64,000 bases of DNA from Prosopocoilus inquinatus (Eukaryota > Arthropoda > Insecta > Coleoptera > Lucanidae), in NCBI GenBank assembly GCA_036172665.1, contig CM069871.1:682001-746000 (forward strand), given 5' to 3'. This document shows, piece by piece, positions 17,251 through 61,964 of the stretch. The notes beneath the pieces are model-generated. The model was given only the letters and a program-made list of their open reading frames with translations, was not told the origin of the DNA and made no database searches. Every line of letters begins with the position of its first letter. Positions within the stretch are counted from its first letter, which is position 1. Position numbers and translations under genes: made by a program.

Positions 17251-18688
17251 ATTTATATATATTTTTTTAATGTAAACCTGTAAATGTGCAATTCCCAGGA
17301 ATGTGATGATGACAAATTACATTACATGATCACAATCTTGTCAGATCGCAATTAGTAAATCCTGTCCTCTGTCATTAACATGCAGAAGGCGAACTGATCT
17401 TGAGCGGCTCGCTCTTTTTCTTTCGGGGCGCCGCTAATTACGGAACACGTTTCTCTCATACACGTATTTTTCTCTTGTTGTTTCCGAACGCACCTTTTAT
17501 TTATAAATAATTAATATCATCTAACGCAGCGCTTAAGAAAACTCGGCGCGATAAAACGAGTTTATCACTGTGGGAGAGGCAGGCCCAACTAGTTACCGGA
17601 GATAACGCGAATACTTTCTCGTGCACTTGAATTTATTTGAATTTCATTTTCATTTTTTTTTTTTTTTAATCACACGGTATTTTTTCCTTATTCAGTATTG
17701 TGCATTAATCATTTTCATGATGATTAAGCCGCCTCTCCCTTCACTTTGTTTATGAATGGGTGGCCGGGTGGCACACAGGGGGACGGGACAGCTGCTACCG
17801 TGGAATATCGCACGCATACATACGGGGTGGTTTTGGGGGCACGTGTCACTCGGGGAACACCTGGCGCAAAGCGACGCTTGCAACCACGGATTTCCATAGC
17901 TGGCAAATTACTTTCGGCGATTTTGCGTGGATGTTAAATAAGATTTGAACCACAATCCTCTTTAGATGTGGTTAACACGAGCAAAACAACAAAACAAACA
18001 ATTAAATAAAAGAGGCGAAGTATAGAACATGTCAAATCGATTGTTGAGATATTAATTAATTAAGCATCACGGATCGATCGTAAATACTTCATCCATATAA
18101 GAGAATTATTTTAAGCATGTGCCACCATATATCTACTATAAATTAAATTTATTAAATTTATAATTAGAGCAGGGCCGTGATTTGCAATACCTACACAGTT
18201 GGTCACATTGTCTGAGGCACATTGAGTTGTCAAAATGTGACAGTTCTTCTTGCAGATTAAATCTAACCTCAAGTAAAAAAGTCGTTTTGGTTTGTTCACT
18301 TATACCGACTGCGTGACGCAAAACACGACCTGCTCGCTTAATAAATTTAATCGATACTGTGATTAGTATTTTATGATTTTCAAACGTGTACAATTAGGGG
18401 TACCACCTGTCTCGAATTTATACTTACACTTCAGTAACAGTAACTAGTAACAGATATAACGAACGCCGCCATTAGTACGGCGGTTGGTTATGCTGTGGCT
18501 GAGGTACGTTCCAAGATTCGCGTGCTGTGGCCGAGGTGTGTTTCAAGTAGCGCGTGTTTAGACGTAATCATAATAAAAAAAATAAATAAATAAATAAAAT
18601 CGAGACGTGTTCAAAAGAATTGGGACTTTTTACGTGTTTATTCAAAGAGTCTTTTTTTTTGAGACCTGAGATTTGAGCCCCCGTTGAT
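17251..18688. other. non-coding stretch, nothing recognised
   Basis: Moderately AT-rich. A GC-richer patch at about 17,730-17,930 gives overlapping 60-codon frames on both strands, none with a recognisable product or splice context. Nothing else supportable. Confidence 0.4.
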
Positions 18689-18826
18689 TTAATTTAATAT
18701 TAATTTGATATTAATTTAATTTAATTTAATATTAATTTAATTTAATATTAATTTAATTTAATATTAATTCAATTTAATATTAATTTAATTTAATATTAAT
18801 TTAATTTAATATTAATTTAATTTAAT
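18689..18826. repeat. 16-bp AT-only minisatellite
   Basis: AATATTAATTTAATTT is repeated in tandem with slight variation, followed by non-repetitive AT-rich sequence. Confidence 0.85.
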
Positions 18827-22320: not shown

Positions 22321-25300
22321 ATTGTCATTTGATCAAATTGTTAATATATCATGTTCAAGTTCTTGCGATTTTGTGTTAACTCACGATATACTTCACAAAG
22401 AGCATCAATCTGTACCCCAAACTGCAATACGTCATCTTTTAGTTCGATGGTACGCAATATACTCATGCCGAAGGGTTTGTCCGCTCAAAAAATTCGTCGT
22501 AAAACAATTTGGAGAACAAATGAAACTACTGCGGTGCTTAACCCCCATATAAATTACCATTTTGAATCTGTATACACCCCTAGACCTTCGTAATATTGAC
22601 TCTGGCGATGAATACTTTGCGAAACGCATCAATTTGTACCTTAAACAACCAAACATCATCTTTTAGTTCGATGGTATACAATACACTCATGCTCAAGAAT
22701 CTGACCGCTCAGAAACATCATTGTAAATCAATTTCGGAAACAAATAGCATGACTGCGGCGTTTAACCCTCCTTCAAATCACCATTTTGAATCTGTATACA
22801 CCCCAAATTCTTGCGATTTTGTGTTCATTCACGATATACTTCATAAAGAGCATCAATTTGTACCTCAAACTGCAATACATCATCTTTTAGTTCGATGGTA
22901 TACAACATACTCATGCGCAAGGGTTTGTCCGCTCAAAAAATTAGTCGTAAATCAATTTGGAGAACAAATGAAACAACTGCGGTGCTTAACCCCCGTACAA
23001 ATTACCATTTTGGATCTGTATATACCCTTAGAGCTTCGTGATATTGCCTCCGGCGATGAATAATTGACAAAACGCGTTAATTTCTACCTTAAACAACCAA
23101 GCATCATCTTTTAGTTCGATGATATGCAATATACTCATGCTGAAGAATCTGACTGCTCAGAAACATCATTGTAAATCAATTTCGGAAACAAATAGCATGG
23201 CTGCGGCGTTTAACCCTCGTTCAAATCACCATTTTGAATCTGTGTATACCCCCCAATTCTTGCGATTTTGTGTTCATTCACGATATACTTCACAAAAAAG
23301 CATCAATCTGTAGCTCAAACTGCAATACATCATCTTTTAGTTCGATGGTATACAACATACTCATGCGCAAGGGTTTGTCCGCTCAAAAAATTAGTCGTAA
23401 ATCAATTTGGAGAACAAATGAAACCACTGCGGTGCTTAGCCCCCCCATATAAATTACCATTTCGGATCTGTATATACCCCAAACCTTCGTGCAATGGCCT
23501 CCGGCGATGAATACTTAACAAAACGCGTCAATTTGTACCTTAAACAACCATGTATCATCTTTTAGTTCGATGGTATGCAATATACTCATGCTCAAGAATC
23601 TGACCGCTCAGAAAAATCATTGTAAATCAATTTCGGAAACAAATAGCATGGCTGCGGCGTTTAACCCTCCTACAAATAACCATTTTGAATCTGTATATAC
23701 CCCCCAATTCTTGCGATTTTGTGCTCATTCATGATATACTTCACAAAGAGCATCAATCTGTACCTCAAACTGCAATACATCATCTTTTAGTTCGATGGTA
23801 TACAACATACTCATGCGCACGGGTTTGTCCGCTCAAAAAATTAGTCGTAAATCAATTTGGAGAACAAATGAAACCACTGCGGTGCTTAGCCCCCCATATA
23901 AATTACCATTTCGGATCTGTATATACCCCAAACCTTCGTGCAATGGCCTCCGGCGATGAATACTTAACAAAACGCGTCAATTTGTACCTTAAACAACCAT
24001 GTATCATCTTTTAGTTCGATGGTATGCAATATACTCATGCTCAAGAATCAGACCGCTCAGAAAAATCATTGTAAATCAATTTCGGAAACAAATAGCATGA
24101 CTGTGGCGTTTAACCCTAGTTCAAATCACCATTTTGAATCTGTATATACCTCCCAATTCTTGCGATTTTGTGTTCATTCACGATATACTTCACAAAAAGC
24201 ATCAATCTGTACCTCAAACTGCAATACATCATCTTTTAGTTCGATGGTATACAATATACTCATGCCCAAGGGTTTGTCCGCTCAAAAAATTCGTCATAAA
24301 TCAATTGGGAGAACAAATGAAACCACTCCGGTGCTTAACCCCCATACAAATTACCATTTTGAATCTGTATATACCCCTAGACCTTGGTGATATTGCCTCT
24401 GACGATGAATACTTTACAAAACGCGTCGATTTGTACCTTAAACAACCAAACATCATCTTTTAGTTCGATGGTATGCAATATACTTATGCTCAAGAATATG
24501 ACCGCTCAGAAAAATCATTGTAAATCAATTTCGGAAACAAATAGCATGGCTGCGGCGTTTAACCCTCCTACAAATAACCATTTTGAATCTGTATATACCC
24601 CCCCAATTCTTGCGATTTTGTGTTCATTCACGATATACTTCACAAAAAGCATCAATCTGTACCTCAAACTGCAATACATCATCTTTTAGTTCGATGGTAT
24701 ACAATATACCCATGCCTAAGGGTTTGTCCGCTCAAAAAATTCGTCATAAATCAATTGGGAGAACAAATGAAACCACTCCGGTGCTTAACCCCCATACAAA
24801 TTACCATTTTGAATCTGTATATACCCCTAGACCTTGGTGATATTGCCTCTGACGATGAATACTTTACAAAACGCGTCAATTTGTACCTTAAACAACCAAG
24901 TATCATCTTTTAGTTCGATGGTACCCAATACACTCATGCTCAAGAATCTGACCGCTCAGAAACATCATTGTAAATCAATTTCGGAAACAAATAGCATGGC
25001 TGCGGCGTTTAACCCTCGTTCAAATCACCATTTTGAATCTGTATATACCTCCCAATTCTTGCGATTTTGTGTTCATTCACGATATACTTCACAAAAAGCA
25101 TCAATCTGTACCTCAAACTGCAATACATCATCATTTAGTTCGATGGTATACAATATACTCATGCGCAAGGGTTTGTCCGCTCAAAAAATTCATCATAAAA
25201 CAATTTGGAGAACAAATGAAACAACTGCGGTGCCTAATCCCCATACGAATTGCGATTTTGTATCTGTGTATACCCCAAATCCTTGCGATTTGGTCTTCAT

Positions 25301-25345
25301 TGACGATATACTTTGCAAAAAGCATCAATTTCTACCTTAAACAAA
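22320..25345 (+). repeat. higher-order satellite: two alternating ~224-bp monomers (dimer ~449 bp)
   Basis: The anchor CATCTTTTAGTTCGATGG occurs about every 224-226 bp (22433, 22657, 22881, 23105, 23331 and on to about 25,128). Monomers alternate strictly. Type A has CGATATACTTCACAAA and AAGGGTTTGTCCGCTC. Type B has GGCGATGAATACTTTAC and AAGAATCTGACCGCTCAG. About six A-B dimers are present, so the older monomer diverged first and the dimer was then amplified. The long open frames here (up to 168 codons) repeat with the array; I do not regard them as genes. Confidence 0.92.
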
Positions 25346-26829
25346 CATGTATCACTTTGATTTCGATGGAACCGCTGGATTTTCAAAAAGAAAAGTATTA
25401 AAATCAAAATTATACAGAGCGAACAAGATTGGTTGTACGTCAGTGATTCATCGTCGATGAAAGATCACGTGACCTTCAAACATTATTGTCTACCTTTTAT
25501 ATGAACTTATCAGCAGATCTTAGTTCGATAACTCGCTTCTGATCTCGTTTTTCTTTTTTCTTCCAATCTTCACGTTGACACTTACTCATAGACATAATAA
25601 TCCAATCAATTAGGTCATTTGCTTAGAATTACGCGGAGGATTTCCTCATAATTCGCACGCCTTCACCTCCGAACAGGAATTAATAATCCCTGTCGAAACA
25701 CGTTTGTCATTATTATTAATCATGGGAAACGCAAGCCTGCCAATTTCATGCAATTACTTACACCATCTATCGCAGGTGCGACAAAAATCGTCACTGTGAG
25801 AGATTGCGAATCGAAAATCGCGCGTAATGAACTAATATAAATTTTGTCGAGGCGGTTAATGCACATGAATAAATGATTTCGAATGGAAATAAAAAACCAA
25901 AGAGCGACTTCGCAGGATATTGAAGAAAAAAAAAAAGTACGATACAGGGTTTCACCGAACTCGAGTCATTTATTAAAACTGCAGGAGAGGAAATTGTTTG
26001 GGGCAATTTCTCAGAATGTTTTAAACAGTACTTGTAATTATATAGGATTTTACAGAACATGAGGCTATTAATAAATCCGGAGAAGAGAAAATGACTGAAA
26101 TTAATTGAATTTTTAATGAAATCCAACCCAACGTGTACATCATATACTGCAAAGAGATATCTACTGCCATTCATCCTTTCATTTGTTTTTTAATATGATA
26201 TGTCTTTATTAATAAATGACTGAAGTACGCTATCATCTTGTATAAGATAGAGATTACGCGTTCTATGACTTGAAACTTCACGCTTCGAGTTTACTCACTT
26301 TAAAGGATGTATCACTTTATGATAAACAAGATCACTTATGATTTTTTTTTATTTTCAAATACATGAAACTGGTTTTAGATTTAGATTATGTGTACACAAT
26401 ACCGAGCTGTTACGAACTGGAATTTAAAATGCGATAAAATTAAGTCTCGTTTTAAAACGACTCAAAAAATATGCGCAACTTATTCACGCCGTTACTAAGA
26501 AGCGATAAAGAGAAAAAAAATACTGTTTAAAATAACGCAAAAATATGCGAAACAGATGCATCATCCATAGCTCATAACGCAAACAAATCGATCTTATTGG
26601 TTCGGATGCTAATTAAACAAATGATCGCGAAGAATTGTATGGAAAAAGCCGTTCTGCTAGTAACTTTATGATCACGTGTTTAGTAAAGTTATTCACTTTT
26701 TAAAATGATTCTTGAATTCAAAATTTTTATCTGAAATTCGTAATATTAATGATTATCTCTTTATTAAATAATTGTTCCGATTGGTAGTATTTATTTAAGT
26801 AAATAAAAATTCTACAGTCAAAAAATTGT
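25346..26829. other. unique-looking AT-rich sequence, no gene recognised
   Basis: No tandem structure seen. The longest frame (minus strand, ATG at 26,174 to 25,791, 127 codons) encodes a Phe/Ser-rich peptide without recognisable motifs, as expected by chance in AT-rich DNA. Nothing else supportable. Confidence 0.4.
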
Positions 26830-28763: not shown

Positions 28764-28771
28764 GGCAACAC

Positions 28772-30903
28772 CAGTGGCGGCTCGTGATGATTTACTGCGG
28801 GTGGGCAACAGCTGCAAAAGGGAAAGCGGGTGCATTTTCCAAATACATTTATTTTTCGGGACCTGTAATTTTTGAACTACATTTAAACGGGGGGCGGGGA
28901 GGGGGGGATTTAAAGAGTTTTCTCGGCTTTCCAACGCGGCTTGCCAAAAAAAAAAAAAACAATCGACGAACGCGTTCTTGAGTTACAATAAAAATTTAAA
29001 AGCGACGCGCCTTTTATTCGTCCAATTAAATGAACGTCTCTCCCTCCCCTCGCGATCGTGCTTGTATTTTTTGAATTCAATTTAAGCGTGGGATTTACAG
29101 AGCTTTTTCTCAGTTTTCCAACGCCTTTCACCAAAAAACAATTGGCAAACGCGTCCTGAAGTTACAATCAAAATTCGAAAGCGCCGCGCCGCTTTTTTCA
29201 TTTGCTCAATTAACTGAACGTCTGTCTCTCCTCAGGCGAGAGCGCTTGTAATTTTTTTAATTAAATTTAAGAGCAGGATTTGCTGAGATTTTCTTCACCT
29301 TCTCAACACCTTTTACCAAAAGACAATCGACGAACGCGTTCTTGAGTTATAATCAAAATTCCAAAGCGACGCTTTTTTTCATTTGCTGAATTAAATGAAC
29401 GTCTCTCCCTTCCGTCGCGATCGCGCTTGTAACTTTTTAATTAAATTTAAGAGCAGGATTTGCTGAGATTTTCTTCACCTTCTCAGCGCCTTTTACCAAA
29501 AGACAATCGACGAACGCGTTCTTGAGTTATAATCAAAATTCTAAAGCGATGCGTTTTTTATTTGCTGCATTAAATGAGCGTCTCTCCCTCCCGCCGCGAT
29601 CGCACTTGTAATTTTTTAATTAAATTTAAGAGCAGGATTTGCTGAGATTTTCTTCACCTTCTCAGCGCCTTTTACCAAAAGACAATCGACGAACGCGTTC
29701 TTGAGTTATAATCAAAATTCCAAAGCGACGCATTTTTTCGTTTGCTGAATTAAATGAACGTCTCTCCCCTCCTTCGCAATCGCGCTTGTAACTTTTTAAT
29801 TAAATTTAAGAGCAGGATTTACTGAGATTTTCTTCACCTTCTCAACGCCTTTTACCAAAAGACAATCGACGAACGCGTTCTTGAGTTATAATCAAAATTC
29901 CAAAGCGACGCATTTTTTCGTTTGCTGAATTAAATGAACGTCTCTCCCCTCCTTCGCAATCGCGCTTGTAACTTTTTAATTAAATTTAAGAGCAGGATTT
30001 ACTGAGATTTTCTTCACCTTCTCAACGCCTTTTACCAAAAGACAATCGACGAACGCGTTCTTGAGTTATAATCAAAATTCCAAAGCGACGCATTTTTTCG
30101 TTTGCTGAATTAAATGAACGTCTCTCCCCTCCTTCGCAATCGCGCTTGTAACTTTTTAATTAAATTTAAGAGCAGGATTTACTGAGATTTTCTTCACCTT
30201 CTCAACGCCTTTTACCAAAAGACAATCGACGAACGCGTTCTTGAGTTATAATCAAAATTCCAAAGCGACGCATTTTTTCGTTTGCTGAATTAAATGAACG
30301 TCTCTCCCCTCCTTCGCAATCGCGCTTGTAACTTTTTAATTAAATTTAAGAGCAGGATTTACTGAGATTTTCTTCACCTTCTCAACGCCTTTTACCAAAA
30401 GACAATCGACGAACGCGTTCTTGAGTTATAAACAAAATTCCAAAGCGACGCATTTTTTCGTTTGCTGAATTAAATGAACGTCTCTCCCCTCCCTCACGAT
30501 CGCACTTGTAATTTTTGGTTTAAATTTAAGCGCGGGATTTACCGAGTTTTTTCTCAGCTTTCCAACGGCTTTTACAAAAAAAAAAAAAAAAAACAATCGA
30601 CGAACGCGTTCTTGAGTTACAATCAAAATTCGAAAGCGACGCATTTTTTCATTTGCTGAATTAAATGAACGTCTCTCCCTCCCCTCGAGGTCACGCTTGT
30701 AATTTTTTAATTCAATTTTAGCGGGGGATTTACAGAGATTTTTCTCAGCTCCTCAATGCTTTTCGCCAAAAAACAATCGACAACGACTGAAAAAGGAAAA
30801 GCGGGTGCATTCTACAAATTTGAATTTATTTTTATTGGTTGTCTCAACGAGGAATTGCCGGGACGTACAAGTTCAACTTGCCCACCCCGACGAGCCGCCA
30901 CTG
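28772..30903. mobile_element. hAT-like non-autonomous element, 2,132 bp, with internal tandem array
   Basis: The ends are inverted: CAGTGGCGGCTCG at 28,772 and CGAGCCGCCACTG ending at 30,903. Similarity continues inward (GGGTGGGCAA on the left, its complement TTGCCCACCCC on the right; GAAAGCGGGTGCATT near both ends). The element is flanked by the exact 8-bp direct repeat GGCAACAC (28,764-28,771 and 30,904-30,911). CAG termini and an 8-bp duplication are the hAT signature. The interior is a tandem array with no transposase frame. It ends 147 bp before the inscuteable start codon. Confidence 0.88.
28930..30780 (+). repeat. 180-bp tandem array inside the hAT-like element, about 10 copies
   Basis: The anchor GACGAACGCGTTCTTGAGTT falls at 180-bp intervals (29329, 29509, 29688, 29868, 30048, 30228, 30408), with diverged copies at both margins. 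Each unit holds AAATGAACGTCTCTCCC and ACCTTCTCAACGCCTTTTAC. Four successive units from about 29,761 to 30,480 are essentially identical, while outer units differ by 10% or more, the usual pattern of unequal crossing-over in the centre of an array. Confidence 0.92.
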
Positions 30904-30978
30904 GGCAACACTAGCTTCCGCGGGTTCAGCGCGCAAATCTAACGCTGATGATGTCCGCATCGCGGATGAAATACGTAT

Positions 30979-31050: not shown

Positions 31051-34000
31051 ATGGGTGAATTTCACCGTAGTCCCAGTAAAGTATGGTGGGCATCGGAGGA
31101 GAACACGAGTTGGAACCAGCGTTCGTCCTCGTCGAGTCCCGGCAGCCAGGATTCCGGTTTCTCGGACGCCGATGCGGAAACGTCCCCTACCAATGGGGCG
31201 CGAAACAAAAAGACACCAAAGAAAGAACAACAATCTCCCCAAAGACTGAATACGTTAAAAGATGAAGACCCGTCCCAGAAGCAGAACTTGTCCGTCAACG
31301 TCAAAGACAAGCCGACGCCGAAAAAGGTGGCGCCGCCGCGGAACGCCACGGAAATCCCGCCGGACGTTTACTACCTCCGGACTCCGGTGCGTCGCATAGA
31401 GATCCAGGTCAGATCCGAGCCCGTCGGCGACGACCGCCAAAAATTCATTAAGAATTGCCCGAAAGTCAGCAGGAATCTCTTCAGGAGCATACAAATGGAA
31501 TCCACGTGCGATTCGATGGAACGCGATCATCAGTATGCGGGAGGCGTCGATGACGCCGCTGAAGTACAAGGTGCGAGCATTGACAGTGAAGTCACATTCG
31601 GTGAAAACATCTCGTGGTCGTCCAGTGACACCTCCGAGCCTCCTCCGGAAGGCGGCAAAAGAGCAGCGCCCAGGAAAATCGCCCCCCGTCTAAACCGAAC
31701 AGCGCCGGCGGCTTTGCACTTCAGCGAAGCCTCTTTTTCGTCGCTGAGCCCCATCGAAAGTGATTCCGACAGTGAACTGGAATGCCTGTTCGCCGCCTCC
31801 TTAGAATCGCCGAAGCACACGTCCACGCCGAAAGTAGACAAGAAGGGGGAACACATTCAACTCGGACGACGACGACGAGCTATGAATTTATTACTCAAGT
31901 ATCAACAGCACGAAAGGTAAGTTTCTTCCAAAAAAAAAAAAAAAAATTAGGTTTAACTTAAACTAAACAAACGCAAATTCAATCTGACTCACACAATCAC
32001 AATCAGCCAAGCCAATGAAAGTTTCAAAGTATTAGTCAACATCAACACTGACGTGTAGGATACATTAATAACAACACACTTCGAAGTTCGAATACAATGG
32101 CGATTGATTTTTGAACGCGGGCGGCGCCGCCGATAACTAATTCGACATGAAGAAGAAGAAGAAGAAGAAGTAGAAAAAAAATCAATAAAGTCCATCGATA
32201 CTGACGGCTGAAAGAATTCATTGTTACCGACTGACTCATCATCAAATCAAATCAAATCAACGAAAGTGTATACGTATTATGATTATTTATTACGCTAAAA
32301 TTGCAACAATTTGCATTCTTCGCGCTGATCAATACCGATTTGTCACTAATCCAATTTAAATGATTGCGCACGTTATTCCTGGAAACGATGAGTGTGTTCG
32401 AATCAATAAAGAACGCCCAGGAAAAAAAAATATTTAAAGTAGAAAACGTAATCGAACTTACATTCTGGCAATCCCTCCCGTCTGTCAAACACAGCGTTCA
32501 ATTTTTAGAAGGAGAAAAAAAAATGCTGGGGCCTTGATGGTCGCTGACTTAAGTTATAACCGGAGAGCGGTCATTCTTAGGTTTTTTTTTTTTTTTTTTG
32601 ATAAAGGAACGCCCAGGAAAAAAATTATTTCAAAAAAGAATATGTAATCGAACTCGCAGTCTGGTAATCCCTCTCGTCTGTCAAACACAGTATTCAATTG
32701 TTCAAAAAAAAAAAATAATGCCGAGGCCTTGATGGTCACTGACTTAAGTTATAATCGGAGAGCGGTCATTCTTAGGTTTTTTTTGATAGCGGAACGCCCA
32801 GGAAAAAAATTGTTTAAAAAAGAAAATGTAATCGAACTCGCAGTCTGGGAATCCCTCTGGTCTGTCAAACACAGTATTCAATTGTCAAAAAAAAAAATGC
32901 CGAGGCCTTGATGGTCACTGACTTAAGTTATAACCGGAGAGCGGTCATTCTTAATTTTTTTTTTTTTTTTGATAAAGGAACGCCCAGGAAAAAAATTATT
33001 TCAAAAAAGAATATGTAATCGAACTCGCAGTCTGGTAATCTCTCTCGTCTGTCAAACACAGTATTCAATTGTTCAAAAAAAAAAATAATGCCGAGGCCTT
33101 GATGGTCACTGACTTAAGTTATAACCGGAGAGCGGTCATTCTTAATTTTTTTTTTTTTTTGATAAAGGAACGCCCAGGAAAAAAATTATTTCAAAAAAGA
33201 ATATGTAATCGAACTCGCAGTCTGGTAATCCCTCTCGTCTGTCAAACACAGTATTCAATTGTTCAAAAAAAAAAATAATGCCGAGGCCTTGATGGTCACT
33301 GACTTAAGTTATAATCGGAGAGCGGTCATTCTTAGGTTTTTTTTGATAGCGGAACGCCCAGGAAAAAATTGTTTAAAAAAGAAAATGTAATCGAACTCGC
33401 AGTCTGGGAATCCCTCTGGTCTGTCAAACACAGTATTCAATTGTCAAAAAAAAAAATGCCGAGGCCTTGATGGTCACTGACTTAAGTTATAACCGGAGAG
33501 CGGTCATTCTTAATTTTTTTTTTTTTTTGATAAAGGAACGCCCAGGAAAAAAATTATTTCAAAAAAGAATATGTAATCGAACTCGCAGTCTGGTAATCCC
33601 TCTCGTCTGTCGAACACAGTATTCAATTGTTCAAAAAAAAAAAAATAATGCCGAGGCCTTGATGGTCACTGACTTAAGTTATAATCGGAGAGCGGTCATT
33701 CGTAGGTTTTTTTTGATAGCGGAACGCCCAGGAAAAAAATTGTTTAAAAAAGAAAATGTAATCGAACTCGCAGTCTGGGAATCCCTCTGGTCTGTCAAAC
33801 ACAGTATTCAATTGTCAAAAAAAAAATGCCGAGGCCTTGATGGTCACTGACTTAAGTTATAATCGGAGAGCGGTCATTCTTAGGTTTTTCTGATAGCGGA
33901 ACGCCCAGGAAAAAAATTGTTTAAAAAAGAAAATGTAATCGAACTCGCAGTCTGGGAATCCCTCTGGTCTGTCAAACACAGTATTCAATTGTTAAAAAAA

Positions 34001-37000
34001 AATGCCGAGGCCTTGATGGTCACTGACTTAAGTTATAACCGGAGAGCGGTCATGCTTATTTTTTTTTTTTGATAGCGGAACGCCCAGGAAAAAAATTATT
34101 TCAAAAAAGAATATGTAATCGAACTCGCAGTCTGGTAATCCCTCTGGTCTGTCAAACACAGCATTCAATTGTTAAAAAAAAAAATGCCGAGGCCTTGATG
34201 GTCACTGACTGATGTTATAACCGAAGAGCGGTCAGTTTTAGGTTTCTTGATAGCGGAAATTCTAGACAGTTGGCTTTTAATTAAAAAAAGAAAAAAATTA
34301 CAAGATAACGAGTGTGAATAAATAAATGTCCGACGTCGAAGCAGGCGATAATTCCTCAACACCAAATTTAAAAAAAAAGTTGCAAAAAAATGTGAAAAAT
34401 GTTCAAGGTTTTCGCAAATAAAAACAAACTCGTGGGAAACAAAAGAGAACTGTGAAACGGAGTCAAGAAAATGTGAAAACTAATTCGATTAAAAGAAGAA
34501 AAATGCGAAAAACATGAAAGCAAAAACAAAAACGGATAGGAAAAAAAATAACTAAATGAAACGTATTTTTAGTTTTTTTTTTTTTTTTGGAAAAAGAAAA
34601 GAAGAATGGACGACCTTTTTGATCAAAAAATAAGTAAATAAGAAACTCTAATAACTCAAACTCAAAATTTTTTTCTAAAGTCAAACAAAAAAAAAAACAA
34701 AAATTGCCGATTTGGGATATCAAATAACAAACGAAAAAAATACAAATGGAAAAAACAAATTTAAAAAAAAAAACTAAAAAAAAATAACTAAATGAAAGGT
34801 TTTTTTTTGTTGGGAAAAAAGAAAAGAATGAACAAAAAATAAATAAATAAGAAACTCTAATAACCTCAAAATTTAAAAAAAGAAGGTGATTAAAAAAAAG
34901 TTGCAAACTTAAACTTAAGACCACGGCGGGCGAGCTCAATTGATTAATCATGTACGGCCAGTACAAAAAGCATTAAAAAAATGTTTTTGTAAAAAAGAAT
35001 TGACAAGTGACTCCCTCAAATTTAAAATTAGTGTGAAAATTACTGTACAGTTGAAAGCAAAAAAAAAAAAATAGTAGGCAAAAAACAAACAACGTCAATC
35101 CAGATCCAGTTCAACTAAACTCAAATAAAAAAAATTGAAAAATTAAAGTTATTAAAAATTAAATTCAATAAAAAATTAAATCCAAACCTTCTCAAGGTCA
35201 ACCGGAAACAAAAATTAAAGCGAAGCTATTTCTGCTTAACGAAATTAAGAAAAAATTGAAAACTCAAATTGGAAAACCAATTTTTTCTAAAGTCAAACAA
35301 AAAAAAACAAAAAATCGCCGATTTGTGATATCAAATCACAAATGAAAAAAAAATACAAATGGAAAAAACCAATTAAAAAAACCTGCAAAAAATCAGAAAC
35401 AAAAGAGAAATTAAAACAACATCAGCAAAATACAGGGCGTGAAGTGAACAAAAAAAAAACTAATATGGACAACTCCAAGTTGAACGAAAAACAAAAATTA
35501 AAGCAAACTGGAAAAAGTCAGTAATACGATTAAAACAAAAACAAAAAAAAAACGGAATACAATGCGCAAAACAAAAGAAAATCAAAACGGAGACACGAAA
35601 CAAATGAAAAACGATGAACTGCGACAACGACACGTGGCTCCCTCAAATTCAAAATTAGCGTCAGAATTACTGTACAGTTGAAACCAAAAAAAAAGTAGGC
35701 AAGAAACAAACAAAGTCAACTCAGATCCAGTTCAACTAAACTCAAATAAAAAAAATTGAAAAATCAAAGTTATTAAAAATTAAATTCAATAAAAATTAAA
35801 TCCAAACCATCTCAAGGTCAACCGGAAACAAAAATTAAAGCGAAGTTATTTCTGCTCAATGAAATTAAGAAAAAATTGAAGATTCAAATTGGAAAATGAA
35901 AATCAATTTTTTCTAAAGTCAAACAAAACAAAAACAAAAAATCGCCGATTTGGGATATACTTGTGAAGAGTAATATGGGGTGACTTCAGTTGACCTTGAG
36001 ATTTGTTGAGATTCATTTTTATTTGTTGCAATTTTTTATTTGGGTTGAATGGAATTAGGTTAAGTGCAGTTAGTTTGGGTCGACATTTTTTTTTTATTGT
36101 TTTTTGATTTTGATTTTTTGAATAGAACGGAGCGCAGTTGTTGGGTTGAGTTTGATTGACCTTGTCACCGGTCAAACTTCGCTTTAAAGGTTTTTAATTT
36201 TGTTCTTTTAATTTTTTGAATTTTAAATTTTTTACTTCAGTTAGGTCGGGTACAGTTGAGTTAGATTGACCTTGAGATTTGTTGGGCTCCATTTTCACAT
36301 TTTTTTTTTTTTTTAATTTTAACAGTCTTAATATTTCCTTTTCTTAAATTTTTATTTGGGTTGAATGGATTGAATGGACGTTAAAAATTGTAAAAAAATT
36401 TCTACTTCTAATTAAAAAAAAAATTATCTTAATTTTATTGTTTTTTTTTATTTTTAATTTATTGCTTGGGTTAAATTGAGTTGAGTTCAAATGTGCTGGA
36501 TCGAGTTTGGTTGACCTTGAGATTGTTTGAGCTGCGCTTTAGTTGTTTTTTAATTAACATGCCTTGCTTACGTTGCTTACCGCCTTCCACCGGCCCTGAT
36601 TTCTCTAAAATTTTTATTTTTGAAGTAATCTTTTTTTTTCCTCCGACTCGCTCAGCTGTATTGACTCTGATCAGGGTCTCAAGATGACGTGTCACGAAAT
36701 AAATTTAAGTTCTGTTTAAAATATTGGTGGAACCGGGCATCAGACATTTTTATGTTGTTTGCTTGTCAATCAATTTTGAAAATCGCGCGTAACTTTATAA
36801 GGAAGCATTTTTCGACACATGTTTATAGGAACTTTTTTTACATTTTTGTTCCGCACATCACGTTTGTAAAGTTTGGCCAAGTAATTCAAATACACCCTGT
36901 ATATTTAGTACTGGAATAAACAAATTGCCTAGTGACATTACGAACGTTTTCTTAATTCCCTGATTTTTCCGAGTTTTCCTAGTTAGTACGAACCTTGTCA

Positions 37001-39232
37001 TGGAATCAATTTTTTTTTTAAATGAAGTTTTAAGTGCCAATCAGAATATGATTGACGTCATACTTACCACCACACATAATGTCATATTTAAACACGAATT
37101 AAATTTAAGTTCTGTCTAAAATATTGGTTGAACCGGGCATCAGACATTTTTATGTTGTTTGCTTGTCAATCAATTTTGAAAATCGCGCGTAACTTAGTAA
37201 GGAAGCGTTTTTCGACACATGTTTGTAGGAACTTTTTTTACAGTTATGTTCCGTACATCACTTTTGTAAAGTTTGGCCGAGTAATTCAGATACACCCTGT
37301 ATATTTAGTACTGGAATAAACAAACTGCCTACTGACATTACGAACCTTCTCTTAATTCGCTGATTTTTCGAGTTTTCCTGGTGATTGGGGAACCCTGTCG
37401 TGGAATCATTTTCTTTATAAAAACGAAAGAGAAAAAAATAAACTAAATTAATAAATATACTTTATTTGACGCTGTCCATATTTTCACTCGATTTCGAGAC
37501 ATTCTGGACAAGTCAGTTTGATTGAGGCTGAAACAGAAACAGCTCTACGAGGTGAGGGGGGAGAGGGGGCGCGCTCAGAAGACCTAGTGCAATCGAAACT
37601 GACTTGCAACTAATTTTTTGACCATTTTTTTTTTTTCGAAATTCTCTAAATTCCAACTAATTTCAGAGTTCCCCCGTTAACCATCCAAGACAGCGATGAT
37701 GGAACGGCGGTGAAAAAATGGATGCAGGAGGCCCGCCAGATTTACGAAGCCGAATGCATGACGGCCCTGCAATGCAAGTCCATAGCGGCAGAGCTATCCG
37801 AGAAGGTCTCCTACTTAGCCGCCATCGCCACCAGCTCCTTGAGAGACCTCCTTAGCCACTCACATCTGATCCAAACCGAGTTTGACAATCTCAAAAAGTG
37901 AGTTGCTAAATCCTTGCGTCTTTCTCGTCTTATCTGGGTGTTCTTATTCCAGCCAAAAGAAACATCTGCAACCGTTAGCCCAAAGCCTGGCGGGCCTAGT
38001 CAAGGAATTCGTCCGAAAATTCGACGGCGCCGAAAACGAGGAAATCGAATGCCAATGCGAAGAACTGAGGAACACGAACCTCGACGACATCAATAAGATA
38101 GTGGCGCAGCTGCACGTGAACTGGCGGAAGCACCAGCAGATGCTCCTAGGGGGCGAAATTAAGAAGCTCGTGGATAGTTTGGGTGATCCCACTTCTGAGT
38201 TTGACTTGCGCGCGAAGCTCACCGGCTTAACCTCGGTCACGCTTCGGAATGAAGAACTGACGAACTTGTTTACGCAATCTGGAATCGTGCAGATCCTCGT
38301 TGTGCTGTGCGAAAAATGCGAAGGTTCGTCGGTGAGGGCGCTGGCGTTGCGTGCGCTCTCCACAATCTGCTCTAACACGTCTGCCATCCGGCAGTTTGAA
38401 AAAGCCTGTGGCGTACAAGTCATAACCGACGTACTAGTTGATGATGGACGTCCAGAACCGGAGCGTTCCGAAGCCGTGGCACTGTTAGCCCAAATCACAG
38501 CGCCTTGGATCGAAGATAATCACAACGTGCGGGGTTTACAAGAGCACATGTCGTCTTTGGTGAAGTCCCTGACGCGTTTGCTGAAGTCGACGAGGTGTTG
38601 CCAGAATCTTCTGCTTTGCACCGCTGCTTTGGCAAACCTCTCCGCCATGGATAGCAAAAGCATCAAGTACATCCTACATCAAAATACGGTCGGAATCCTT
38701 CTGGACGCGGTCAAATGTCGGGGGCCTTTAGCTTCAGTCTATTTGCTAGAGCAAGTTGCCACTTTAATCGCTAACATGTCCTCGGTGGAGTACGCCCGGA
38801 AGCAACTCACCGATGACAAGGCCCCCGCCGCCCTCCTCTGCTTCCTACAAACGAACTGCCTGGACGAGAGCGTCATCAGGAGGCTCCAGCAAAAATCCAT
38901 CATCGCCTTATCGAGGCTTTGCAGTGAAGTCAGCGCGTCGCAGCAAGTCGTCGAAATGGAAGGCGTCGAAAAACTGGTCAAGCTATGTCGGGAAAAAAAG
39001 GAGCGTTACGACAGCGACGCAGTTCTTGTGGCTACGCTGGTATGTATCTCGTTACGCTCACTGATAGAACAACTCATGCCAAAGAAAGTGTCTGTTTTAG
39101 GCTACGCTACGTAAGATTGCGGAAGCGTGCGGGCCGTCGGTGATAAGTCCTCAGGACGCGCAAGAACTGGTCGAACCGCGCCTGCTGGATTCCTTCCTGG
39201 CGTACTCGACCCAAAATGAGAGCCTCGTATAA
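31051..39232 (+). CDS. insc: Inscuteable, asymmetric cell division adaptor
   Basis: Coding exons 31051-31916, 37667-37897, 37953-39039 and 39101-39232 give 771 aa; all introns are GT-AG and phases join. Residues 1-288 are low-complexity and Ser/Lys-rich (SPSKVWW, QDSGFSD). Exon 2 encodes the LGN/Pins-binding core (VKKWMQEARQIYEAECM, then LQCKSI), matching vertebrate INSC. About residues 430-765 form helical armadillo-type repeats, ending SDAVLVATLATLRKI, then EPRLLDSFLAYS and the C-terminus ESLV, a possible PDZ ligand like ESFV of mammals. In flies Insc links Bazooka/Par-3 to Pins-Gαi at the apical cortex and orients the spindle. The ATG at 31,051 is the first in frame; a non-coding 5' exon may exist. 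AATAAA at 39,322 follows. Intron 1 is 5.75 kb of repeats. Confidence 0.93.
31917..32389. other. start of insc intron 1, nothing recognised
   Basis: AT-rich intron sequence with a short (GAA)n run near 32,152-32,170. Donor GTAAGT at 31,917. Confidence 0.6.
32390..34260 (+). repeat. ~185-190-bp tandem array in insc intron 1, about 10 copies
   Basis: The anchor GGAACGCCCAGGAAAAAAAT recurs near 32412, 32607, 32793, 32981, 33173, 33353, 33536, 33721, 33899 and 34079. Each unit also has ATGTAATCGAACTCGCAGTC and GCCGAGGCCTTGATGGTCAC. Most variation is in the T run before the anchor and the A run after CAATTG. Two subtypes differ by GATAAAGGAACG versus GATAGCGGAACG. Confidence 0.9.
34380..36560. repeat. 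A-rich duplicated segments in insc intron 1
   Basis: TTTTTTCTAAAGTCAAAC followed by GCCGATTTG recurs near 34,670, 35,285 and 35,910, and GTACAGTTGAAA(G/C)CAAAAA occurs near 35,045 and 35,672, giving a diverged unit of about 620-630 bp. From about 35,950 the sequence switches to GACCTTGAGATTTGTTG phrases like those at 2.8-3.9 kb. No coding. Confidence 0.65.
36694..37410 (+). repeat. two ~317-bp direct repeats 400 bp apart in insc intron 1
   Basis: Copy 1 (36,694-37,010) and copy 2 (37,094-37,410) share AACCGGGCATCAGACATTTT, AATCGCGCGTAACTT and ATACACCCTGTATATTTAG at a constant 400-bp offset. They are separated by about 83 bp of other sequence. The phrase TACACCCTGTATA is a common end-like motif of dispersed insect elements and also appears in the myosin intron element. 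No protein function. Confidence 0.85.
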
Positions 39233-40122: not shown

Positions 40123-40973
40123 CAGTGTTGCTAGAGGTGCATCATATATCCTTTTTTTGTTGTTTTTTTTTAATTTAATGTGTTTTCTACGATCTTCTTA
40201 CTTTTTTTATTTATTCCTAACATTTTCATCAATATGAAAATACTTTTACATGTGTATGTACAAATTTAAAGTACGCGTAAGAGATAATAATCAAAGACAA
40301 GAATTTACGTAACGGACGGGACATTCTAGGATTGTCCTGTCCGCGAACAGCGTGAACGTCAAAAATTCAAAATTTTGTTCTGTGTATATCAATAGCTGCT
40401 TTCTTTCGCTTAAAAATTTGAATCTGGTATTGAATAGTTTGAATCTGGATTCTGTAGCAGTTGTTGTAACAAAATATCTCAGATTTGAATTATTGATTGA
40501 CAGTTCGTCTGCAAATAACTGCAACTCAGTCCAAACAAAACATAAAAACAGTTTGATTCGAAGAGGAAAGGGCATTATCGATCCGGACTGATATTTCAAG
40601 GACAGTGGGGATTAATCCGTTTGCAAGAGAACGTCCGTCTTTGAAACTAAACTTGTTTGGATCAAGTTTTTGTGAACGAAAGAAAGCACCTAATGTCGAT
40701 ATCTTGGCCATTGTTGTGACGATGTCAAATTTGACAAATGTGTAGCAGAATTATTCGTCGTTTTATTTGTAAAATTCCAAAATGGCTTTAGTGCTTTATA
40801 AATTCTAATGCTGCTGTAATAATAATTGTTATTACTATTACTACTCCATTTACAACATATTTGAATTCTAATCGGATCAAATTTACTTAAAAATCACCGA
40901 TTGCATTTCACGTACAGTTAGAGATGAAATAAATTTTAATGGAGCACCTCTTGTCACCGCTGTTGTCAAAATG

Positions 40974-41047
40974 TACAGTCGAAAGCAAAAAAATAGTAAA
41001 CAATTACAGTTTCCTGTAATTTTTCTTTCTCCGAGATACTGCTGTTT
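40974..41047. mobile_element. partial MITE of family M1
   Basis: Only the left arm is present: TACAGTCGAAAGCAAAAAAA then TTACAGTTTCCTGTAA and TTTTTCTTTCTC. The right arm is missing, so it is truncated. Confidence 0.65.
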
Positions 41048-41068
41048 GCGCTTTCAATTGGCATGCAC

Positions 41069-41307
41069 TACAGTTGAAAGCAAAAAAAAAGTAGACAAAC
41101 TACAGTTTCCTATAATTATTCTTTCGAAAAATGCCATAGATTAAAGACGAATCCACAGATTTTATCAAAGTTTTAAACTTGTTAATTTTGAAAGCTTTTA
41201 CATTTTTTAAATGTCATCTGTGAAGTCGTCTTTAATCACTACCATTTTCAGAAAGAATGATTACAGGAAACTGTAGTTTGCCTACTTTTTTTTTGATTCC
41301 GACTGTA
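41069..41307. mobile_element. Tc1/mariner-like MITE (family M1), full length
   Basis: Begins TACAGTTGAAAGCAAAAAAA and ends TTTTTTGATTCCGACTGTA. Inner arms (ACTACAGTTTCCT and AGGAAACTGTAGT; AAAGACG and CGTCTTT) pair along much of the length. TA at both ends fits a Tc1/mariner target site. Confidence 0.75.
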
Positions 41308-41382
41308 TGTGCACTGAATATATCTTCATCTCGTTTTAATTTTATGGAATAAAATGAGATGAAGATAGATTCATTGCACATA
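41308..41382. mobile_element. hairpin element (family H1)
   Basis: TGCACTGAATATATCTTCAT then CTCGTTTTA is mirrored by AAAATGAGATGAAGATAGAT then TCATTGCACA, leaving a loop of about 10-15 nt. A second member is at 41,729-41,853. Confidence 0.65.
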
Positions 41383-41392
41383 GTGCATCACA

Positions 41393-41562
41393 ATCGAAAG
41401 CGCTGCAAGGTCTCACAAGTGACACTTAAATATTTCGACCCCTTTCATATTCGACAAGCTTAAAATGTTGTGAAATCTACGAAATCGTATTTAAACAGTA
41501 TCATTCTGAACACATTTTGGACAAAGAAATATTACAGGAAACTGTAATCGTCCACTATTTTT
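41393..41562. mobile_element. truncated MITE of family M1
   Basis: Left end CACAATCGAAAGC is short and altered. The right half (AAACAGTATCATT, TTACAGGAAACTGTAATCGT, CCACTATTTTTTTG) is intact. Confidence 0.55.
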
Positions 41563-41728
41563 TTGGGTTTCCTGAGGCGTCACACAGTGTTGCCAGAGGC
41601 GGTAATTTATCACCAGATCTGGAGATTTTTGTTATTTGTTAATTACCTGGTGATTATTTTTAAAAACTCGGGATTATCTGCTGCCTTTTCATAAAATGTA
41701 AATAAGAAAAAAAATTGAAATGATTTTA

Positions 41729-41853
41729 ATAGCGTTTTTTGCTAGCTGCACCAGTGTATACTGAGTGTATCTCTATCTCGTTTTATTACATAAAGCTGAA
41801 TCGAGATGGAGATACACTCAGTGCGCACTGGTGCAGCCAGCAAAAAACGCTAT
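41729..41853. mobile_element. 125-bp hairpin element (family H1)
   Basis: ATAGCGTTTTTTGCTAGCTG then CACCAGTG...CTGAGTGTATCTCTATCTCG pairs with CGAGATGGAGATACACTCAG...CACTGGTG and CAGCAAAAAACGCTAT. The arms are about 55 nt. Absent from copy B of the surrounding hAT family, so it was gained after the copies separated. Confidence 0.7.
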
Positions 41854-42059
41854 AAGTTTCAATGATGAAAGTTGAGACGCATCTTTTTGCGATATTTAAT
41901 ATCGAGCAACTGTCAACACTGTCAATCGTCACTTTTTTTCCCGCCAATTTAAAAATATTTGCAAGAAGGCACTTTTTCTTCGTAAACTGTAAACTCTTTT
42001 GTACAAATTCATATATTTTTAGTTGTGTCAGAATTAGAAAATTTAAACGACAGACATTT

Positions 42060-42323
42060 TACAATCGAAAGCAAAAAAGTACTCCTAGTAGGCGATTACA
42101 GTTTGCTGTAATTTTTTTAAACTATAGTTTCCTGTAATTTTTTAAACACGATTTGACAGGTGACACTTCTATGCTTTCGGATTTGACAAGTTCACAACTT
42201 TTGTAAAATCTGTGAAATTTATTTCATTTAAATAATACCATTTCGAGAAAGAGAAATTATTTTGAGAGAGAAAAATTACAGGAAACTGTAATTGTCTGCT
42301 ACCGATTTTTACGTTCGACCGTA
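42060..42323. mobile_element. Tc1/mariner-like MITE (family M1)
   Basis: TACAATCGAAAGCAAAAAAG on the left, TTTTTACGTTCGACCGTA on the right, with the usual TTACAG/CTGTAA inner arms. The flank of this MITE matches the flank of the one at 60,798-61,030 in hAT copy B, so the MITE belonged to the hAT element before it was copied. Confidence 0.7.
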
Positions 42324-42549
42324 GATTCGCCTAAAGTTAATTAGGAAAAGTATTTGAAGTTTTTGTTTTTTTTTATCATTTTGTACCTTAAATTAATAAA
42401 ATAATTTTGAAGCGTCAATGTAATAACGTCAAAAATTTTAATGAACGACAAATTAGTACAAAGAAATAAACTGGTGATTTTCAGTTAGTAACTGGTTACT
42501 TTTTGTCAGCCAATCTGGTGACTTAAATTTTGATCGTCTGGCAACACTG

Positions 42550-43307: not shown

Positions 43308-45160
43308 GGCACTCTGTACCCAACGTTTGGTTAACGGCCAGTGTTGCCAACTTAAGGAAAAAAATCGTTAAATCTACGTAGGAATAATTTCAAACAAAAG
43401 AGAAAAAGGGAAGAAGAATCGCAAAAACTCACTAAAAAATCTTGGAAACAAAAGACAATCGCATTGATTACTGAACTCTTTTTGACAATCAAGAAACCCA
43501 CTACAAACGGAAAAATTCCTGACTACAGTAAAAAGGAAAGTTACTGTCATACAGGTAGAAGAAAAGAACTTGGGACGAATTGTAGACTAGCAATTAAAAA
43601 AAATAATAATAATAAAAGAAACGAACCAAAAATTCAATCTGTATTATAATATTTACGAAACGAAAATTTCTAAAGAAAGCGCGAAAAAACACATGACTAA
43701 TCATGCGGGGAGCAAAAAGTACCTCAAAATTTTTGATTAATTAATTTCGTAAAGGAAAAAAAAACAAATGACAATCGTGAATTTGACCACGGAAAACCAA
43801 ACAAAGAAATACCAAGAGACGATCATCGCAAGAAAAAAATTCGAAAGGAGTCGGAACTGTTTGAGAATTCATAAACAAGTGACGATCGCGTAACATTCAA
43901 ATCATAAAACTGCAAATGTAAGCACCTGTTCGTCGATTAAACAATTCGTTCAAATATCAGTGTCTTTATTTATTTCTTAAAGAGTTTCCAGGTTTCATAA
44001 ATACAATTTTCGCATCTACCGCCATTACACCAACTGCAACGGTTTGAACATCAGTCTGATGTTGGCAAGCAATGCTGCCAGCTGTCTTTGACGGAACTAC
44101 CAACGTAACTAACCGCCTACACAAACATTTGGAACTACCAACGTAACTAACCGCCTACACAAACATTTTTTTGAAAAATCTAACCGAAGCGTTACTATTA
44201 CTTTCTATTCAATAATAACTTCTTTATTTCAGTTTTTTTCTTTTATTTTTTTCTTATTATTATTAAGCGCCATCTCGGGTTAAAACGATACGTAACGTCA
44301 AAATAGATTTTTGAAATGCACGATTAGGTTGCTTTCATATTTCTATTTCGTTTGTTTGAACGGTTAACTGCAAATTTCTTTTTATAGATTTACCTGTGTG
44401 CAAGTGTGCTAATAAAAAATAATTGAAAAATGTTAGTAAACAATAATTTTTGTTTTCTTTTGTGTTTTTAACTTTAAACCTCCTTTTTCGAATTTGCCAG
44501 ATTAATTTTAGGGAATTCTAGGGAAATCCTGTATGGCGAAAAATTAATTTTCGGTCGAATTGATCTGCAATTGTGTTAACCTCTAAAAAAAAAAGAACTT
44601 GCTTGCTACGAATGAGTGAGATCTTAGATTGGGTAAGAGAGGAGATGCCTTTCGCCGTATCTAACGCATGAGCGACCACTGTTACCAGAAAAGAACAAAT
44701 CAAGGATGCATTACACTGCACAAATCTGTCACGGCCAAAGCGAATTTCAGTGTTTTTGATGAAAAAGTGAGTGAAACATATATTGATAGTTCATAGAAAC
44801 AATGTGCAATGTGTAGCAAAGCCGGCCCGAGAAAAGCGAGCCAGGAATAACATTTCACAAGTAAAAATAAGTGTCCTGGAGTTGGACCCAACTGGTAACA
44901 GGTGTGCCTCGCCTGTGCGCCGTCCTCTCTGATTCTTTATCTAAGACTCAACCATTGGGGCTCGTTCAGGAACTGAAAAGAGCGCGCTCTCTCCCTTCTC
45001 TCTGGTGTAAGTGATTTTGCATATTTTGCTTTTCGTTTTAAAGGTCCAAACTGCTCTGGCGTTACAGTTTTTGAATGCAACCTTAGGTAATTATTTACAA
45101 AAGCTACGTACAAGGTACAAGTTAGCGTATGAAGAAGAAATTTTGCACATAGCATCACTA
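43308..45160. other. intergenic sequence with small repeats
   Basis: An end-like CAGTGTTGCCAACTTA at 43,339 has a relative near 1,570-1,617. A-rich DNA with AACAAAAGACAATCG-type motifs lies at 43,440-43,880. A 38-bp perfect tandem pair (GGAACTACCAACGTAACTAA, ending AAACATTT) lies at about 44,092-44,167. 44,160-44,282 is an inverted relative of 399-533. No gene: the 63-73 codon frames at 44.5-45.2 kb have no recognisable product. Confidence 0.45.
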
Positions 45161-57470: not shown

Positions 57471-57890
57471 CCCGTACGACAAATCCGTTTATTTTAATCA
57501 TTCAAAAAATAAATGTCACAACTTTGACATTTAAAATTTTTAATTTCAAACTGTAAGCGTGCGTTGCCAACTTTGTGGAAAATATCACAACCTGCTCTAA
57601 TTATAAATTCCGTTAATCGATAGTATTAGTGAAAAAAAAAGAACCTAAAGAATGGAAAATGTAAACTTTTCAAATAATAAAACAACAGAAAATAATACCA
57701 TCTTAAAATTATGGAATTGCTTACATAAAAAGGATATAACAATACCCCATGACTTATCGCGAATTTTGAAATGTACCTCAGCCACAGCACGAATCTTTAA
57801 ATGTACCTCAGCCACAGTGCAAATCTTGAAATGTACCTCAGCCACAATTGCGAATCTTGATATGTACCTCAGCAACAGCTTTCGGCTTCC
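57471..57890. repeat. diverged single copy of the 508-bp terminal array unit
   Basis: GACAAATCCGTTTATTTT, AATTTCAAACTGTAAGCGTG, CGTTGCCAACTTT and GAAAATGTAAACTTTTCAAA follow in the same order as in the units from 62.1 kb on. It ends with four ~30-bp copies of AAATGTACCTCAGCCACA (57,765-57,880). Confidence 0.8.
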
Positions 57891-58666
57891 CCCTTCTTGC
57901 TTTTACATTTTTCATCGCGATCACTCTAACTAATCATGCAACTGTAATTAATTTGACAGTGACTACTTTTTAATAGACAAATAAATGTATAATATAATCA
58001 TGTAAAAGAAGAAAATCATACTTTGACATCTGTCACAATTAGTAATGATTTCTTACATAGTGCGAGCATTAACGTTTGATTGTCACTTTCAATAAAAAAA
58101 AAGTTTTAGTTTTACATCTAGAAATTCGCGAAAATCAATAACCAATAGATGGCGTTATTATTAAATAAGGAAAACAAACAGCTGTCATTAATGTTATTCG
58201 GTATAATTTGCTGGCATTCGATCCAACATTGCTTTTTGTTGGTTTTATTGTTATATTTACGTTATGCTAAATGTACACAAAACTCACAGACAGACATTTC
58301 AAATTAATGTTCTTTTATAGGCCAACCAAATATTTTCCTTATTATAGGGACCTTCACAAAACTTTCGCTAGATGTCAGCCGCTTCGTGATTTTCTCGAAT
58401 TGAAAAACTTCAGACCTTTCACCGGAAAGGAAAAGTTTGAAAACAAGTTCAACATTTATGCATTCTTCAGTTAAAAAAAAATGAAAGTTGAGCACAACTT
58501 GTTGGTTATGTCGTAAAAAAGTCAATTACACATAGCGCTTTCCTTTCGTTAACGTCAACCGCTGCCAACTGCTCAAGTCGTCAAAGCCAGTTGTTCTTTT
58601 CACTTTTGGCATCAAGCCGTCAGGACGTTACAACTGTCCTTCCCCTTACCCCTTGAGGACATGCTT
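57891..58666. other. intergenic sequence with a dispersed segment
   Basis: One AGATGGCG near 58,147. 58,330-58,400 is the partner of the 39,960-40,065 segment. No gene. Confidence 0.45.
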
Positions 58667-58947
58667 TAAGCTGGATTCATTGCTAGGCGTTTTGCGTTGG
58701 CGTTAAAATTCTACGCGATTCTATTGGCCCATTTTAAAAGTATGTAATTTGTTCAATTAAACGAACCAATCATATAGGGCGCGTTCAGCGGGCTGAGTTG
58801 CTTACTCAGCAATCGATTGTGATTGGCTCACATGAAGGTAATAGCCAATCACAAACGACTGCTGAGTAAGCAACGCATCCGCTGAACGCGCCCATAGCTA
58901 TCCCGTAATGCGGCGATGAAAAATCGCTTAGCAATGAATCCAGCTTT
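58667..58947. mobile_element. foldback element containing a second hairpin
   Basis: AAGCTGGATTCATTGCTAGG at 58,668 and CTTAGCAATGAATCCAGCTT ending 58,946 are the outer inverted arms. Inside lies a separate, nearly perfect 117-bp hairpin at 58,777-58,893. Confidence 0.75.
58777..58893. mobile_element. 117-bp hairpin element nested in the foldback element
   Basis: GGGCGCGTTCAGCGG then TTGCTTACTCAGCAATCG and GTGATTGGCT pairs with AGCCAATCAC, ACTGCTGAGTAAGCAA and CCGCTGAACGCGCCC. Same family as the split hairpin at 40.1/42.6 kb. Confidence 0.8.
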
Positions 58948-60169: not shown

Positions 60170-60271
60170 GGACCGGTTAGGTTTTTCCATCACAGTTTAA
60201 CTTTAAGCTTCGCTTTATTCCCATGGCGAGATATAAAACGAAGTTTAAAGTTAAACCACGACGAAAAAACT
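60170..60271. mobile_element. palindromic element (family P1), right end split off by hAT copy B
   Basis: ACCGGTTAGGTTTTTCCATC...GTTTAACTTTAA pairs with TTTAAAGTTAAACCACGACG then AAAAAAC. The outer tip of the right arm (ACTGGCCTT) is found only after the hAT copy, at 61,387-61,395. Confidence 0.65.
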
Positions 60272-61381: not shown

Positions 61382-61395
61382 AAAAGACTGGCCTT

Positions 61396-61964
61396 TGGTT
61401 ACTAGTGGCATCTGACCTATCACTTCAGAACTGTTTTTAAATACTTGCTGCTACCAAATACAGATGGTGCTTTATTATTGGATGCGTTCAGAAAATTATT
61501 TGTAGCGCTACAGCCAGCTACAGCGCATCGCAAAGCTGTAGCGCTTTAAATTACCTGAATCAAGATTCTGTTGTAGAGGTTATGTTGATCATAGATAGGG
61601 CTTAATGTAGCGTAAAAATACCACGCTTGACTAATGGCGGTCGCTTCAAAAAAGCGCTGCAAGTAATGACGTCATATGCACCTCCTTCAGGCTTTCGCTT
61701 TATATAGAAAAACGCTTCAGCGCTGGGGTTACCTGAACGCGGCCATTATCTTTAGCCGTCTCATTAGTTTTTTTAGTTTAAACTTCAAGGAGCATTTGTT
61801 TCAGAAATGGGGTTTCGTTTGTTTCACTTCCAGACGATCGGTGCGTTAGTTTTTGAATGTTGAAATAATTTTCGAAATTAGTGTCTTCAATACTCCAAAG
61901 ATGTCACTTGATTCGCTCTTATATTTTTTCTGGTTCCGTTGGGCTTTTTTTTTGTAGTTGGTTC
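61396..61964. other. intergenic sequence
   Basis: Possible foldback ends GCGTTCAG near 61,487 and CCTGAACGC near 61,732 with AGCGCT repeats between. Nothing else recognised. Confidence 0.35.

Follow-up and report, generated by a model that had tools for sequence, protein, structure and literature searches.

How satellite repeats find their way into gene-rich DNA is an open question. Among the documented satellite carriers are Helentrons, a foldback element and a miniature inverted-repeat transposable element (MITE) of the Tc1/mariner superfamily (PMC7492417, PMC4079207, PMC12628747). Internal satellite-like arrays are also described in the Xenopus MITE Xstir (PMC12628747), and in plant elements including Tnat2 (PMC10794571). 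The low-copy satellites of Tribolium have preferred units of 140-180 and 300-340 bp. Of the 42 identified in its assembly, all but one lie within 5 kb of transposable elements, chiefly DNA transposons, and short low-copy arrays of this beetle have been discussed as satellite seeds (PMC10218199). Here we analyze a 64,000-nucleotide stretch of the lucanid beetle Prosopocoilus inquinatus (assembly GCA_036172665.1, contig CM069871.1, positions 682,001 to 746,000), hereafter the window, in which a 2132-bp element (28772-30903) is largely composed of a 180-bp tandem repeat. We consider it probable that this is a hAT-like non-autonomous transposon with an internal array set between two copies of a direct repeat, D, and that several diverged units were already aboard when it inserted.

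In literature searches, judged by titles and the starts of abstracts and with incomplete coverage, none of the matches listed described a satellite array inside a hAT-type element. With its defined ends, exact duplication and D boundaries, the element allows the carrier hypothesis to be addressed by direct counts in the source genome.

Structure of the element

The element and its duplicated target consist of the following parts, given from left to right.

28764..28771, no strand: target-site duplication (TSD), left copy GGCAACAC, read directly and identical to the right copy
28772..28785, plus strand: terminal inverted repeat (TIR), left, CAGTGGCGGCTCGT, 14/14 against the reverse complement of the right end
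28799..28808, plus strand: second terminal block GGGTGGGCAA, left, 10/10 against the right end at an 11-bp offset
28806..28856, plus strand: direct repeat D, left copy, which stops where the array starts and has the same orientation as the right copy
28856..28958, plus strand: diverged partial leftmost unit, from alignment to the unit consensus over 28856-28954
28959..30772, plus strand: ten full 180-bp units, from Tandem Repeats Finder (TRF) and unit alignment
29666..30431, plus strand: exactly periodic core of 766 bp at lag 180, from a 586-bp run, beginning at 29666, that repeats exactly at this lag
30773..30785, plus strand: 13-bp stub of the last unit, directly following the tenth unit (U10), 13 letters with one gap
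30781..30833, plus strand: direct repeat D, right copy, which starts where the array stops
30878..30887, minus strand: second terminal block GGGTGGGCAA, right, inverted, from the terminal alignment
30890..30903, minus strand: TIR, right, read directly and from the terminal alignment
30904..30911, no strand: TSD, right copy GGCAACAC, read directly

The two copies of GGCAACAC are identical at all eight positions and abut both ends of the element. When the window was randomised 40 times under a first-order Markov model, no 13-bp inverted pair spaced by up to 6 kb and bordered by an exact 8-bp TSD appeared, and the inverted ends and exact 8-bp duplication claimed in the preliminary description are borne out by these observations. 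Shorter pairs are less demanding: an exact 8-bp TSD accompanied a 10-bp inverted pair by chance once in total over the 40 randomisations, and any TSD of 5-9 bp did so eight times over 10 randomisations. The sequence CAGTGGCGGCTCG matched the window twice when up to two mismatches were allowed, both matches being exact, against 0.15 expected, and two or more matches were obtained in 1 of 100 shuffles.

TRF delimits an array of period 180 and 10.1 copies at 28954-30785, and anchors define ten full units with lengths of 179-191 bp, which agrees with the about ten 180-bp units originally proposed. All ten lie in the same orientation in the center of the element. Leftward extension of the array to 28856 rests on an alignment score of 55 that was reached by none of 500 shuffles; the 13-bp stub at the right is not significant by itself, since 197 of 500 shuffles scored as high. 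With the partial unit of about 100 bp, the ten full units and the stub, the array runs from approximately 28856 to 30785 and makes up about 90% of the element.

Pairwise identity among the full units ranges from 75.9 to 100% and follows their position. Units U05 to U08 are identical to one another, U03 and U04 are 92-96% like them (U03-U05, the younger inner units, being 96% alike), and U01, U02, U09 and U10 are 76-88% like the remaining units. This pattern is the usual one for arrays that homogenise in the middle, and the identical core, whose length is the 586-bp run plus one period of 180 bp, shows recent growth in copy number. Four of the ten full units, each about 180 bp long, are identical, and tandem monomers homogenised in this way are a feature of satellite DNA. 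The array has no demonstrated function and we take it as passenger DNA. Two functional candidates were rejected. No frame is open across the array, the longest reaching 108 amino acids, less than two units, so that the unit is not a coding repeat; and the folding of the unit as DNA (z = -0.94) was equaled or bettered by 36 of 200 shuffles. The unit consensus contains four 10-bp palindromes. One of them, the perfect palindrome GAACGCGTTC at unit positions 10-19, is intact in all but one of the ten full units (28959-30772) and is possibly a protein-binding site.

The placement of the array between two direct copies of D, each about 50 bp long, is an addition to the first description of the element, and direct repeats of this length are an unusual detail. 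The copies are identical at 43 of 53 aligned columns, with two gap columns, and the overlap with the array is 1 bp at its left edge and 5 bp at its right edge. No similarity between D and the 180-bp unit was detected in local and slot-constrained alignments compared with shuffles (P of 0.39 and 0.66). We also considered whether the unit derives from the ends of the element, the situation in Tetris, given a likeness of D and the unit seen by eye (AAAGCG..GCATTTT), and rejected this when the alignments proved no better than shuffles.

Classification

Short ends of the form CAGNG together with an 8-bp duplication are a hallmark of hAT elements. Both features are found here, since the TIR CAGTGGCGGCTCGT begins with CA(G)NG and matches at 14/14 positions, and GGCAACAC provides an 8-bp TSD that is 8/8 identical at the two ends. 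Pegasus is grouped with hAT. The silkworm elements BmMITE-14, -15 and -16, which are labelled Pegasus-like, have the ends CAGTGGCGGATTA, CAGTGGCGTACCTA and CAGTGGCGGATTT and 8-bp TSDs (PMC2997013). No open reading frame (ORF) of 120 amino acids or more lies inside the element, where the longest stop-to-stop frame has 108, and the element is therefore non-autonomous. At 2.1 kb it exceeds the usual size of a MITE. It also departs from Foldback or Tetris-like elements, in which tandem repeats lie within long inverted termini, since its TIR has 14 bp and its units are central and in one orientation. The earlier assignment to a hAT-like non-autonomous element with a body made of a 180-bp array is supported by the TIR, the TSD, the lack of an ORF of at least 120 amino acids, and the existence of insect MITEs with CAGTGGCG ends and 8-bp TSDs (PMC2997013).

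Pattern searches contributed little to this assignment. Neither a 26-base core of the unit nor the left-end pattern had any match in viral contigs, and among the literature matches listed for the 10-mer CAGTGGCGGC no title named a transposon family. The left-end pattern had one match in prokaryote genomes, in a planctomycete, for which we estimate that just under one is expected by chance; this match was not used. Neither the viral nor the prokaryote collection contains insect genomes as such.

Origin of the internal array

Divergence amounts to 14-24% in the D pair and the outer units, and the 22 paired positions of the TIR and TSD show no difference. Were the insertion of the same age as the duplication of D or as the outer units, the chance of finding all 22 positions unchanged would be 0.2-3%. 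The contrast between diverged outer units and unchanged ends favors an array that was already old at insertion. The outer units are probably older than the insertion, and it is more likely that the array moved as cargo than that it grew in place, although the support is modest. In the preliminary description the array had 'moved, or was born, as cargo' of the element; this is plausible and the age argument favors the first verb, but a single insertion is no proof of it.

The duplications made by Ac-type hAT elements prefer nTnnnnAn and those of the Buster type nnnTAnnn. Several points must be weighed against the reading that diverged units were carried in by a hAT-like element. The agreement of GGCAACAC with these target preferences is only loose: position 7 is A, but position 2 is G, and the center lacks TA. 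A single copy is known, its family membership and mobility being inferred from structure, and the element has no known source of transposase. The age argument is biased, since a perfect TIR and TSD are how the element was noticed; the TSD alone gives a chance of 11-29%, and the inner units U03-U05 give 42% for the 22 positions, so that the inner array may have grown in part after insertion. Note also that the TSD proves the insertion of something with these ends and not that the array was already aboard.

With these points considered, the insertion of a hAT-like element that already contained diverged units is still the reading we prefer. Its history could be as follows. A short progenitor of about 155 bp (TIR, D, TIR) would have gained a tandem block, placed between two copies of D. 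Slippage or unequal exchange within the element would then shift the copy number of the block, processes that would keep the inner units identical and leave the outer ones free to diverge. A transposase encoded by a source elsewhere in the genome would recognise the ends of about 14 bp and cut and paste the element, which, with several diverged units, would have been inserted upstream of the presumed coding start of inscuteable.

How the first block was acquired is left open in this history, and a second explanation overlaps with it, so that the likelihoods given to the two are not exclusive. The ends may have captured a piece of a pre-existing genomic satellite, for instance by recombination of an extrachromosomal circle at D or as filler during gap repair, in which case the element would be a secondary carrier of a satellite that has chromosomal arrays of its own. 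We hold this to be possible though somewhat unlikely. The occurrence of D on both sides of the array is what one would expect if a circle carrying D and units had integrated by homologous recombination, no similarity was detected between the unit and the terminal sequences, and a published model for a Xenopus MITE invokes capture with short direct repeats on the flanks (PMC12628747). However, a D copy within the circle would need an origin of its own, and no free-standing array of the unit was seen in the rest of the window, where the element has 15 matches of at most 33 bp, mostly poly-A, with 13 of them coming from one of its poly-A stretches.

A third explanation denies that the satellite was ever cargo: a short hAT-like MITE would have inserted first and the 180-bp array would have grown inside it afterwards. 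The 766-bp identical core is the signature of recent growth, and arrays in this region seem to expand without transposon ends, covering about 24% of the window (18 intervals), with 11 of 13 checked intervals having no TIR and TSD pair under the thresholds given below and one more having AT-rich low-complexity pairs alone. The 14-24% divergence of D and the outer units against 22 unchanged TIR and TSD positions suggests, modestly, that the oldest part of the array predates the insertion, and we consider growth entirely in place to be unlikely.

More far-reaching is the proposal that a hAT-type family, through cut-and-paste transposition, delivers whole satellite arrays of several units to gene sites in euchromatin and that D is the reversible boundary of a cassette. 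Recombination between D copies, a deletion that by arithmetic leaves an element of about 155 bp, would empty the element to a MITE, and circles bearing D would refill it, dispersing and regenerating satellite seeds. We advance this as a speculation and consider it quite unlikely.

That an ordinary satellite array in this repeat-dense region happens to be flanked by a coincidental inverted pair and 8-bp direct repeat is extremely improbable, given the absence of 13-bp pairs with an exact 8-bp TSD from all 40 randomised windows and a start, CAGTGGCG, that is shared with known insect MITEs with 8-bp TSDs (PMC2997013).

Other repeats in the window

Tandem arrays with units of about 30 to 450 bp cover the stated 24% of the window, within the spans 3623-34245, 44093-44168 and 57759-63998; the figure corresponds to the 18 intervals, which were picked from 45 TRF rows. 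The check for ends covered 13 intervals, smaller TRF arrays being left out and some neighbors merged, and considered 12-bp ends with at most one mismatch and a TSD of at least 6 bp within 800 bp of the array, a setting that misses elements with shorter TSDs. The present element was the only convincing case. The array at 18687-18826 had two TIR and TSD pairs, both of them AT-rich low-complexity sequence, and was discounted. Most of the arrays checked thus show no transposon ends of this kind, and arrays seem to grow readily in this host. In the preliminary description the element could explain how satellite seeds reach euchromatin; the window does not show this, most of its checked arrays being without such ends. 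One array (22360-25369) has a 449-bp unit that is itself composed of two halves of about 224 bp. The left flank of the element is degenerate and rich in repeats.

A second hAT-like family is present at 40123-42549 and 60272-61381, with ends CAGTGTTGC(T/C)AGA. At the first copy the flanking duplication, CTGAGAGG, is 8 bp long and exact. The second copy is shorter, rearranged and in the opposite orientation, with flanking octamers that are alike at 7/8 positions. The two have several blocks in common, at about 70-91% identity, and TRF finds no long tandem array inside either. Read on the opposite strand, the TSD sequence GGCAACAC becomes GTGTTGCC, a motif in the ends of this second family. In either orientation the motif occurs 9 times in the 64 kb, two of these being the TSD copies and seven other sites of the window. 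The insertion site of the element may be an old end of a second-family element.

Setting beside the presumed inscuteable start

One coding feature adjoins the element.

31051..31917, plus strand: neighboring ORF outside the element, presumed N-terminus of inscuteable, with no Pfam match itself

A downstream exon (37870-39111) is assigned to Insc_C (Pfam, 5.3e-49), and on this basis we presume that the ORF at 31051 is the first coding exon of inscuteable. A protein search with the exon segment 37915-39111 gave 48 matches (7999 candidates scored), the two closest with 69 and 72% identity, so that none comes from a near relative of the host. Seven beetles are the best named relatives (Aromia, Leptinotarsa, Diabrotica, Hypothenemus, Cryptolaemus, Rhamnusium and Acanthoscelides), and the remaining three of the ten named are a louse, a mayfly and a copepod. 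This ranking by itself points to a beetle as the probable host. A 370-bp array (32406-34245) is located between the presumed inscuteable exons.

The ATG at 31051 lies 147 bp from position 30904, the distance from the inscuteable start that had been given before. The figure is correct but may mislead, since the ATG is preceded by a T-rich tract ending in TATAG that resembles a 3' splice site. From this signal the element probably resides in an intron of the 5' untranslated region and not in a promoter.

Comparison with known systems

The silkworm elements BmMITE-14, -15 and -16 are like the present one in having TIRs that start with CAGTGGCG and an 8-bp TSD without fixed sequence. They occur in many copies in or near genes, and they differ in their length of 265-431 bp, the excerpted account mentioning no internal satellite array (PMC2997013). 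Tetris/TIR-220 of Drosophila virilis does have an internal satellite-like array, and for it, as for the present element, no source transposase is known. It is Foldback-like, with the repeats inside its TIRs and a repeat that shares 37 bp with the terminal part (PMC4079207). Our element has instead a 14-bp TIR, a central array and no detected similarity between unit and ends.

Helentrons are rolling-circle elements that have neither a TIR nor a TSD. Those of oysters with central repeats resemble the present case in carrying a satellite-like array inside a dispersed non-autonomous element (PMC7492417, PMC12628747). The present element, unlike them, has a TIR and an 8-bp TSD.

hobo is a hAT element. 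In Drosophila melanogaster it has expanded to 16 tandem copies, an array of whole elements, whereas here a short unit is in tandem within one element (PMC12628747). The tandem growth of hobo links hAT elements to tandem arrays in another way.

The MITE miDNA4 of Xenopus, described with its satellite monomers by Scalvenzi and Pollet, resembles our element in having an internal tandem array that varies in copy number and has direct repeats on either side, and capture followed by expansion has been proposed for it. It differs in belonging to the Tc1/mariner superfamily and in its direct repeats, which are of at least 5 bp in comparison with about 50 bp here (PMC12628747, PMC10048060). Transposons with internal satellite-like arrays are thus already documented, and the present element adds a case.
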